A DNA stretch of 64,000 bases from Terriglobia bacterium (GTDB lineage: Bacteria; Acidobacteriota; Terriglobia; 20CM-2-55-15): NCBI GenBank assembly GCA_036496425.1, contig DASXLG010000020.1:1-64000 (forward strand), given 5' to 3'. The translations under genes were made by a program, and so were the position numbers. How positions within the stretch are numbered: the stretch's first letter is position 1; each line of letters starts with the position of its first letter. Shown here piece by piece: positions 5,653-42,500 of the stretch. The notes beneath the pieces are model-generated. The model was not told the DNA's origin and ran no database searches. It saw only the letters and a list, made by a program, of their open reading frames with translations.

Positions 5653-6297
5653 ATGCCCAGTCCAGGGACGGAAAAGGGATTCTCATTGCTCGAAGCAATG
5701 ATCGCACTGTTTGTCATATTTGTGCTTGCACGGGTGGCGCTCCCCAACCTGACAAGTATGCAGAAGTTCGGAAGAATCAACGGAGACGCCAGCAGTGTTG
5801 CCGGTTTGATTTCGGAGGCAAAGCTCCGTGCCTCTGCTTCCTTCTCACATGCAAGGGTATATGCGGACCTGACGGCCAAGACATATCACCTGGAAATCTG
5901 GAACAAAACCAGTTCCTGCTGGCAAACCGACGGAGACAAGAATACGTGCACCGTGGCTGCCAGTCCGGTCCAGAACCTTTCTTCGGGTGTGAGCTTCGGC
6001 TACGGCGCGATTTCGAGCGCTCCATCGAATACCCAGCCCACGCTCAGTCAAGCTCCTCTTTGTTACACCGGATACGCAGGACAGGCAGGCAACACGACCA
6101 CTGTCGCCAACACCGCATGCATTGAGTTCAATTCACGCGGCGTTCCGTCAAATCCGGTCACCAGCGGAAAAGCCGATGCAACCGGCGCATTTTATATAAC
6201 GAACGGCACGGCGATTTACGGAGTGACGGTGCTCACTTCCGGATCGGTTCAAAGCTGGACCGCCCAGACGGCTCAGAGCAGCTGGCAGCAACGGTGA
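5653..6297 (+). CDS. Type IV minor pilin, FimT/GspH-like
   Basis: A 214-residue prepilin. The start at 5653 is chosen because AGAAGGA sits six bases upstream and because it gives a normal short leader: eight residues, then the class III signal site KGFSLLEAMIALFV, with cleavage after Gly and Glu at mature position 5. The upstream in-frame ATG at 5593 would give an unusually long leader. After the hydrophobic helix the body has a GspH/FimT-like beta region with Cys pairs (CWQTDGDKNTC and LCYTGY..ACIEF). It probably belongs to the pilus-tip or priming complex. It is first of four pilin genes on one strand with tight spacing. Confidence 0.85.
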   Translation: MPSPGTEKGFSLLEAMIALFVIFVLARVALPNLTSMQKFGRINGDASSVAGLISEAKLRASASFSHARVYADLTAKTYHLEIWNKTSSCWQTDGDKNTCTVAASPVQNLSSGVSFGYGAISSAPSNTQPTLSQAPLCYTGYAGQAGNTTTVANTACIEFNSRGVPSNPVTSGKADATGAFYITNGTAIYGVTVLTSGSVQSWTAQTAQSSWQQR

Positions 6298-6307
6298 GGT
6301 TCAAGAT

Positions 6308-6904
6308 ATGAAGTCCTGCAGAAATTTCTCAGCTTTTTCCGCCCGTTCGCCGCAAGCCGGCTCGACCTTGCTCGAAACGGCGATTGCCTGCTGCATTTTA
6401 CTGATCTGCGCGGTGGGAGGGTTGAACATGGTGAGTTCGAGTTTCTCGACGACAGAAAATCAGGGACATCTGCTCGCCCGCACTGTCGAGTATTCCCAGG
6501 ACAAAGTCGAGCAGCTTCTGGCATTGGCCTATTGTGATTCGCAGACCGACACGACGCAGCTGACCGCAGCGGCCACTGGCGGAACAGGACTGGCAGGTTG
6601 CCCCGTTCCGCTGCAGAACCCGGCTACCGGGACAAGCGGCATTGGAGGCAGTTCGGATCCCAGTAATCCAGCGACGGGTTACGTCGATTACCTCGACAGT
6701 ACCGGAACGCTTGTCACCGGTGTCAACGGCGCGGCTCCGGCAACCTGGTTTTACAAACGTGTCTGGCAACTCGCGGCGGGACCGGCCGGCATAACGCAAA
6801 CGAAGAAGATTACGGTGACAACACGGGTGAAAACACAGGTCGGCGGCGCTCAGGGAAGCCCGCCGCAGGCCACCGTGTCCGTAATCAAGACTTATCCCTT
6901 TTAG
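6308..6904 (+). CDS. Type IV minor pilin, PilV-like
   Basis: A 198-residue prepilin with the cleavage region QAGSTLLETAIACCILLICA near residue 17: the usual Gly precedes the cut and Glu stands at mature position 5. The leader is longer than average and basic. The start lies 10 bases after the fimT-like stop, with AGG eight bases upstream, so it is translationally coupled. The C-terminal half is Thr/Gly-rich with a conserved-looking TTRVKTQ beta strand. It is expected in the inner-membrane minor pilin complex that initiates pilus assembly. Confidence 0.82.
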   Translation: MKSCRNFSAFSARSPQAGSTLLETAIACCILLICAVGGLNMVSSSFSTTENQGHLLARTVEYSQDKVEQLLALAYCDSQTDTTQLTAAATGGTGLAGCPVPLQNPATGTSGIGGSSDPSNPATGYVDYLDSTGTLVTGVNGAAPATWFYKRVWQLAAGPAGITQTKKITVTTRVKTQVGGAQGSPPQATVSVIKTYPF

Positions 6905-41154: not shown

Positions 41155-41173
41155 ATAAAGGTGCGGACGCATC

Positions 41174-41692
41174 CAGCCTTCGATTTTCGACTCCAAGCAT
41201 GGATCTGCGAGATGCAAGCTTGGACTTTGAAATCCAGGCCTGCATGTGGCACATCCAGGCTTGAATTTCCAGATTCAAGCTTGGATGCGACGCATGCAGG
41301 CTTGGATTTCCAGATTCAGGCTTGAATGCGGCGCATGCAGGCTTCGAATTCCGGATTCAGGCCTGAATGCGACGGATGCAGGCCTGGAATTTCAGATTCA
41401 AGCCTGAATGCGACGGATACAGGCTTGGAATTTCAGATTCAGGTCTGAATACGACGGATACAGGCCTGGAATTTCAGATTCGAGCCTGAATGCGACGGAT
41501 ACAGGCTTGGAATTCCAGATTCAGGCCTGGATGCGACGGATGCAGGCTTGGAATTCCGGATTCAGGCCTGAATACGGCGGATGCAGGCTTGGAATTTCAG
41601 ATTCAGGCCTGAATACGACGGATACAGGCTTGGAATTTCAGATTCAGGTCTGCATGCGACGGATGCAGGCTTCGAAATCCAGATTCAGGCTT
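41174..41692. repeat. Tandem array of a 41-bp repeat, about 12.7 copies
   Basis: Copies begin at 41174 and then every 41 bases exactly (41215, 41256, 41297, 41338, 41379, 41420, 41461, 41502, 41543, 41584, 41625, 41666); the last is partial. The first two or three are diverged and the central ones nearly identical. Each unit has two related halves of 20 and 21 bases, both beginning CAGGCYTG. The second half-start forms the perfect 14-base palindrome ATTCAGGCCTGAAT in many copies. There are no spacers, so it is not CRISPR. The 41-base period breaks any reading frame. The stretch from 41155 to 41858 holds no convincing gene; 41693-41858 after the array is plain leader for the next gene. Confidence 0.97.
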
Positions 41693-41858
41693 AGACCCTC
41701 CATCACGTTCGCTTTCCGCGGGCATTTGTAAAATTCCGCGGCCGATGCGTAAAAAGATGCCAGGCAGTTTAGTACTTTTTGCGTTTGCCGGCGATTTACA
41801 TAGTATGGGGCCAAATAATCCGGCCTCAAATTTTGACAACGAAGGGGGGTGAGAGCCT

Positions 41859-42500
41859 ATGTCGCAAACCAAAACGATCAAACCGTACGAAGCGTACGGC
41901 ACGGAGCCGGACGGTACCATCGTCACGACTGCCACGGCCGTTCAGACCGCTTTGACCGGGAATTCGAATTACTCGAATCTGCCGGTCGACTTGGCGACCC
42001 TGAAGACGGATATCGCGACGCTATCGGCGCTTATGGCCGAAGCTCGAGATGGAAGTAAGAAGGTCATCGCCGAGAAAGCCAAACAGCGGGAAGTTGTTGT
42101 GAAAGAGTTGCGGCTGCTGGGACGCTATGTCGAAGTGACATGTAAAGACGATATGGCGATTTTCCAGTCCAGCGGTTTCCGGCCTGCGTCAACGAGCAGG
42201 ACGAAATCGCCGGCACTGACTCAGTACATCCGCAGCATCAATCACGGCGCCCACAGCGGGCAGATTGTCATTCGACTGGTGGCGGTTCCCAAAGCCGTCA
42301 GCTACGAATTGCATTATGCCGCTGAAAGCAACAACGGCGCCGCTCCGGCATGGACGACATTGACGTTGACGGGTGTGAGAACGCCCGTCACGCTCAGTGG
42401 TCTGACACCGGGAACGGCGTACGCATTCCAGACGCGGTCGCTGGCGAAAGCCGGTGGCTACACCGACTGGAGTGATCCGGTGACATTCATGTGCACATAA
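41859..42500 (+). CDS. Fibronectin type III domain protein
   Basis: A 213-residue protein with a strong ribosome binding site (AAGGGGGGTGAG). Residues 1-110 are mostly helical (LATLKTDIATLSALMAEARDGSKKVIAEKAKQ). Residues about 125-213 form an FN3 domain (IRLVAVPKAVSYELHYAAES; LSGLTPGTAYAFQTRSLAKAGGYTDWSDPVTF). It has no signal peptide. Helical-plus-FN3 proteins of this size occur as uncharacterised accessory genes. It stands alone between the 41-bp array and a palindrome. Confidence 0.75.
   Translation: MSQTKTIKPYEAYGTEPDGTIVTTATAVQTALTGNSNYSNLPVDLATLKTDIATLSALMAEARDGSKKVIAEKAKQREVVVKELRLLGRYVEVTCKDDMAIFQSSGFRPASTSRTKSPALTQYIRSINHGAHSGQIVIRLVAVPKAVSYELHYAAESNNGAAPAWTTLTLTGVRTPVTLSGLTPGTAYAFQTRSLAKAGGYTDWSDPVTFMCT

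Follow-up and report, generated by a model that had tools for sequence, protein, structure and literature searches.

The tandem array described here is one of dozens that lie upstream of genes of a fibronectin type III (FN3) family, and it is not a stand-alone minisatellite. The common denominators of these arrays are their upstream position, a period of two helical turns and a tendency towards dyad symmetry. Our leading interpretation, which we hold tentatively, is that array and FN3 gene form one cassette in which the array, upstream, has the regulatory role, as a helix-phased putative binding array of the enhancer or UAS type. The stretch of 64,000 nucleotides that was analysed (the window) belongs to a 6.16 Mb MAG of 407 contigs, and the following features were delimited in it.

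41,174 to 41,692, no strand: tandem array of 12.7 units of 41 bp (half-units of 20 and 21 bp), self-complementary
41,355 to 41,368, no strand: perfect palindrome ATTCAGGCCTGAAT, first exact copy
41,560 to 41,573, no strand: perfect palindrome ATTCAGGCCTGAAT, second exact copy
41,601 to 41,614, no strand: perfect palindrome ATTCAGGCCTGAAT, third exact copy
41,749 to 41,812, forward strand: leader- or promoter-like block GTAAAAAGATGC...GATTTACATAGTATGGGGCC in the interval between array and gene, delimited by comparison with paralogues and of putative function
41,859 to 42,500, forward strand: FN3-family gene (213 aa, Pfam fn3), the partner of the array

An earlier reading of the sequence only had described about 12.7 copies in a 41-base register, and both the coordinates and the period hold. 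TRF calls the array at 41,211-41,690 with period 41 and score 622 (41,162-41,690 and 12.9 copies with looser settings), and the lag-41 identity of 41,174-41,692 is 0.84, against a maximum of 0.33 among 5000 shuffles. The half-unit word said to recur every 20 or 21 bases was recovered as well: C[AG][AG]G[CT][CT]TG has 21 sites spaced 20, 21, 20, 21 and so on, with one site missed, and the fundamental period is 20.50 bp. Since 41 is not a multiple of 3 the array is noncoding, in agreement with the claim that no stable protein is encoded. The presence of the perfect palindrome in many units was overstated: near-palindromes are frequent and exact ATTCAGGCCTGAAT occurs three times. Aligned with its own reverse complement the whole array scores 171, versus 22 with its mirror image. 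Mismatches to the consensus unit run, from left to right, 15, 11, 7, 5, 3, 3, 3, 4, 2, 4, 2, 2; the left edge is thus decayed and the centre homogeneous, as had been proposed, whereas the right edge, also described as diverged, stops abruptly inside a partial unit. A CRISPR array was rejected, the whole 41-bp unit being repeated and variable spacers being absent.

Our initial idea, that the array is a product of local slippage, was dropped once upstream arrays surfaced across the FN3 loci. One rule was applied to all loci, namely that the period be a multiple of about 20.5 and that length and score each reach 80. By this rule a tandem array lies upstream of the FN3 gene at 41 of the 69 loci of the family for which 700 bp or more of upstream sequence was available, and downstream at none of 75 (Fisher 1e-17). 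About 376 kb of DNA from the same genome lacking an FN3 gene contained one such array; at this density 0.3 upstream arrays would be expected rather than 41, with a P of about 4e-71, a rough figure because the density is based on few arrays. When TRF was run on all paralogue loci, the majority proved to have an upstream array, the periods being 20, 40, 41, 42, 82, 120 or 123 and each array having its own word. FN3 gene and array are paired also in a further four genomes of the genus, in two more Acidobacteriota families (L200-L206, genomes G268 and G392) and, with a 21-bp period, in one Verrucomicrobiaceae MAG (L171). At one of these loci (L206, in G268) 21-bp arrays occupy -639 to -408 and -383 to -131 of the FN3 gene, and the two look like inverted copies with a short gap, that is, a large hairpin of arrays.

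Arrays are not always close to the FN3 gene. At L083 the array lies past the 3' end of a divergent activator-like gene, more than 1.1 kb from the FN3 promoter, at L075 it lies 2.7 kb away beyond a polymerase gene, and orphan arrays exist without a nearby FN3 gene. Several arrays end exactly at contig ends, the MAG assemblies being fragmented and several arrays being cut there. In G000, C35:1-440 and C253:1-309 (L147, L258) carry one shared 41-bp array cut by two contig ends, with no adjacent FN3 gene; in C35 it is followed by two genes that, read from sequence rather than by profile, resemble tssB and tssC of type VI secretion.

Concerning the period, the fundamental value lies between 20.0 and 21.35 bp, two turns of the DNA helix, in 50 of the 50 arrays measured; this set was chosen with a period filter, and the unfiltered TRF lists contain almost no other upstream periods. 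Self-complementarity exceeds mirror symmetry in 36 arrays, versus 11 with the opposite result (Wilcoxon 1e-6), and palindromy reaches p<0.05 in 17 of 52 consensus units (9e-7 when combined by Fisher's method). Because only these 17 are individually significant, self-complementarity is a tendency and not a rule, and universal palindromy was rejected. The sequences themselves are hardly shared: only a few pairs of arrays are similar, and their similarity tracks the relatedness of the FN3 genes. Between close paralogues or orthologues the arrays diverge about as fast as synonymous sites or faster (array identity of 86% vs pS 0.13; 72% vs pS 0.18), so that constraint on the words seems weak. Intrinsic curvature was rejected, since at 10.25 bp, half the period, W/S power shows no excess and hence no signal of an intrinsic bend.

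These results allow the reading as a passive minisatellite, a functionless product of slippage, to be weighed. The drift of the words at a nearly neutral rate and the decayed left edge would suit it. It leaves unexplained, however, the upstream-only association with FN3 genes and its improbability at background density, the occurrence of the pairing in further Acidobacteriota families and a Verrucomicrobiaceae MAG, and the one shared period, and we consider it hardly credible. The sequence-only reading had itself named a unit found nowhere else as one of the marks of a passive minisatellite; at the level of architecture this is contradicted, the same arrangement occurring with other words at dozens of FN3 loci.

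The same reading had suggested searching the unit against the complete genome, and this search returned three more arrays with a related word. The one at C308:6055-6362 (L021/L113; also delimited as 6047-6370) is 79% identical to the window's array and collinear with it at both ends, and has no FN3 gene; by our reading of the sequence it adjoins a tRNA-like sequence and an integrase-like fragment. The array at C362:16513-16687 lies upstream of the closest FN3 paralogue, and that at C240:44228-44333 is a degenerate 21-bp array. The word is not scattered at other promoters of the genome, has no match in five other genomes of the genus (one MAG per species), and the exact 41-bp unit has no match in the GTDB contig set, plasmids or phages. 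The block at 41,749-41,812 is common to the C362 paralogue and partly to the paralogue L036 of genome G004, and is not of sigma-54 type.

The FN3 protein is modelled with a pLDDT of 93.5 as a helical N-terminal domain followed by a fibronectin type III domain. The family has about 50 paralogues in this genome (52 matches), and five further genomes of the genus gave 26, 8, 7, 3 and 0 matches. Other sampled genera of the same taxonomic family lack it, 2 of about 395 other genomes sampled in the phylum have it, and plasmids and phages gave no match. Over the FN3 protein, a genome of the same genus is 100% identical to a soil MAG labelled 'Acidobacteria gp5', which suggests that the window comes from Acidobacteriota. 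In a fold search, the solved structures among the matches listed are FN3-type domains and the viral matches listed are for the most part tail proteins and others that contain FN3. With dN/dS values of 0.2-0.5, the genes evolve under purifying selection. The nine genes around the window's array encode a TonB-type receptor, the FN3 protein, glycosyltransferases, a methyltransferase, a peptidase, a DUF1552 protein and one product without a match. No conserved third gene of the cassette was found, no family besides FN3 recurring at most loci (gene calls outside the window were made in this analysis).

The large and variable size of the family (from 52 matches to 0 across six genomes of the genus) could also indicate a platform for recombination or variable copy number, in which the arrays would help the FN3 family to expand, convert or switch its genes and regulation would be incidental. 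Such a role would fit the near-identical central copies, the arrays that stop exactly where a contig does, a behaviour of unstable or long repeats, and the collinear FN3-less copy at C308. The drift of the words, the outlying arrays of L075 and L083 and the orphan arrays also leave it some room. On the other hand, the words differ between loci, and therefore recombination across loci would not be easy, the arrays are upstream only, and the role predicts no helical phasing; we regard it as improbable.

Evidence for the regulatory reading comes also from the promoters and from the genes beside them. Sigma-54-like sites scoring at least 7.5 are found upstream of 25% of FN3 genes, versus 4% of background 200-bp windows, and about 15 FN3 promoters belong to this class. 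The IHF consensus occurs with at most one mismatch at 11 of 17 scored sigma-54-like promoters, on a single strand and 26-29 bp before the -24 element, and five of the 11 are perfect (background: 0.03% perfect, 1.8% with at most one mismatch). Further upstream, 13 of 15 sigma-54 loci carry an array. Genes with FHA and Sigma54_activat domains adjoin FN3 in L068, L072, L079, L098, L163 and L164, all of them sigma-54 loci (domains checked with Pfam in the first four); these activators are FHA-GAF-AAA+ proteins with a terminal helix-turn-helix, and in L079, L163 and L164 the array separates the FN3 gene from the divergent activator gene. One rpoN and about 33 full sigma-54 activator domains were counted in the genome. 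In this subset of loci the order is therefore array, IHF-like site, sigma-54-like promoter and FN3 gene, with an activator encoded beside the gene, and the geometry, as far as motifs define it, is that of a putative enhancer with IHF-assisted looping.

Sigma-54 is not common to all arrays and was dropped as a general rule, since 23 of 33 other loci carry arrays too (p=0.29 for the difference, the promoter classes having been assigned post hoc from motif scores, after viewing the data). Other FN3 genes adjoin ECF sigma factors, a FecR-like protein or T7-like RNA polymerases, and none of the four loci paired with a phage-type polymerase has an array within 1.7 kb upstream (p=0.004 against the 13 of 15 sigma-54 loci, a comparison likewise made post hoc). 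The window's own locus has no sigma-54-like promoter (best score 4.0) and its 64 kb contain no GAFTGA activator. Because the -24/-12 promoter is absent, we do not file the window's array as a sigma-54 UAS but only as working like one; at this locus, of another promoter class, we infer the role by analogy.

The T7-like single-subunit RNA polymerase genes deserve a separate mention. G000, a bacterial MAG, has about seven (PF00940, E down to 3e-105), at least five of them beside FN3-family genes. They include C138:11904-13073, C203:1780-2853, C277:11619-12656 and C231:12503-13564 of G000 (by locus, L075:405-2810 with homologues in L090, L094 and L104, and a fragment in L096). One more was found in G004 and none in four other genomes of the genus or in 14 control genomes.

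Considering all loci, the arrays probably act as docking strips for the regulators of the FN3 genes. Dimeric regulators would occupy the dyads on one face of the helix and, helped by IHF looping, would activate the FN3 gene. Regulator specificity would be particular to a locus or a small group of loci, which would explain why words differ between loci, and unequal exchange would homogenise the copies, which would explain a near-identical centre beside a decayed edge.

An alternative is that only period and symmetry count and not the word, a sequence-tolerant protein or DNA topology insulating, silencing or marking the cassette; a silencer or bridging protein, the FN3 protein itself or topology would be the candidates. 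The steady period of 20.0-21.35 bp, kept while words drift at about the synonymous rate, speaks for this reading, and so do the presence of arrays across promoter classes, the orphan arrays and the position of the L075, L083 and L086 arrays at the outer border of cassettes of regulator and FN3 gene. It has to face the missing intrinsic-bend signal, the lack of arrays at polymerase-paired loci and the fact that no candidate sequence-tolerant protein was found, and we consider it unlikely. A related proposal, possible though rather doubtful in our judgement, is that of a gene-plus-array cassette, dispersed among Acidobacteriota and present in at least one Verrucomicrobiaceae MAG, for which only the two-turn period and the symmetry would be under selection while the sequence drifts, so that function would lie in the spacing.

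It was also considered whether the array is transcribed to a structured repeat RNA that works on or with the FN3 product, as do the repeat antitoxin RNAs of type III toxin-antitoxin systems. Type III toxin-antitoxin loci typically carry tandem repeats immediately before a gene, and the FN3 arrays share with ToxI-like repeats this upstream position and a word that varies by locus. A single strand of the window's array folds far better than shuffles with DNA parameters (z -17), although this value is inflated because shuffling also wrecks the repeats. Against the RNA stands the composition of the palindromes, where G-T pairs and A-C mismatches are equally frequent (98 vs 96); without wobble bias a role as DNA is favoured, and the RNA hairpin was rejected. 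Furthermore, the interval from array to gene yielded no terminator-like site, promoter-like matches were confined to the other strand downstream of the FN3 gene, Rfam gave no match in the window, structure model and fold search reveal no nuclease fold in the FN3 proteins, and an RNA needs no period quantised at 20-21 bp. A repeat RNA is therefore very improbable. A type III toxin-antitoxin system in particular was rejected at the window, with no terminator, no promoter-like match upstream of the gene and a partner made of a helical domain and FN3.

Other elements were seen in the FN3 leaders. A possible H-type pseudoknot RNA lies 30-130 bp before the start codon (L085, L087, L088, L089, L090, L097, L047, L078 and others), with a stem such as GAGAAGG/CCUUCUC whose loop CGGCCGC pairs with a downstream GCGGCCG. 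Stem 1 varies between leaders while pairing is kept; 9 of 54 leaders score at least 13 versus 0.2 in shuffles, two of the nine looking unrelated, and Rfam gave no match in pseudoknot leaders at the 16 loci scanned. Moreover, the short hairpin-like GGGCAAGCGCGATAGCGCGCAG and its variants recur, in the manner of a REP-type repeat, in the leaders of L078, L089, L092 and L103 and, in a variant form, at L117:3217-3328, a locus without FN3.

We compared the arrays with known systems. The regulatory reading finds its closest counterpart in the sigma-54 UAS, with bacterial enhancer-binding proteins and IHF looping: a subset of the loci shares dyads at least 100 bp upstream of a -24/-12 promoter, an IHF-like site between them and an AAA+ activator gene beside the target. 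Sigma-54 enhancers are usually described with two or three sites, whereas FN3 arrays hold about 5-30 phased sites, have a word per locus and lie also upstream of non-sigma-54 genes, the window's included. The F plasmid centromere sopC consists of twelve 43-bp repeats with inverted repeats, and sopC and other ParB/ParR arrays share with ours about 12 head-to-tail units of about 41-43 bp and dyad symmetry. However, no partition genes were found beside the FN3 loci examined, and there are dozens of arrays per genome with differing words and linked to FN3. A partition centromere of sopC/parC type was rejected for the window's array, ParA/ParB-type genes being absent among the nine neighbours. In plasmid iterons, direct repeats that each span about two helical turns stand in tandem, and their word varies according to the cognate protein; FN3 arrays resemble them in both respects; they differ in being chromosomal, dispersed and palindromic, with no Rep gene among the annotated neighbours. 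With REP/REPIN-RAYT elements they share palindromic words that are linked to a single gene family and diverge as it does, but no transposase was found at FN3 loci and the words are confined to arrays instead of scattered over the genome.

Among the options listed by the sequence-only reading, protein binding is thus best supported (20-21 bp period, dyads, upstream-only position, adjacent regulators) and structured RNA is disfavoured. No sign of genes for the partition or nucleoid role that it offered was seen, and the evidence points to gene regulation. We found no account of FN3-linked or helix-phased arrays in Acidobacteria in the open-access literature, which is weak evidence of absence.

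What appeared to be a minisatellite is therefore one of dozens of parallel natural cases in which one architecture is combined with different words in one multigene family, whose members adjoin dedicated transcription machinery of unusually mixed kinds (sigma-54 activators, ECF sigma factors and T7-like RNA polymerases). With such families it can be tested directly whether sequence or helical phasing is what is read in a cis-regulatory array, and how regulator and site diverge together after gene duplication.
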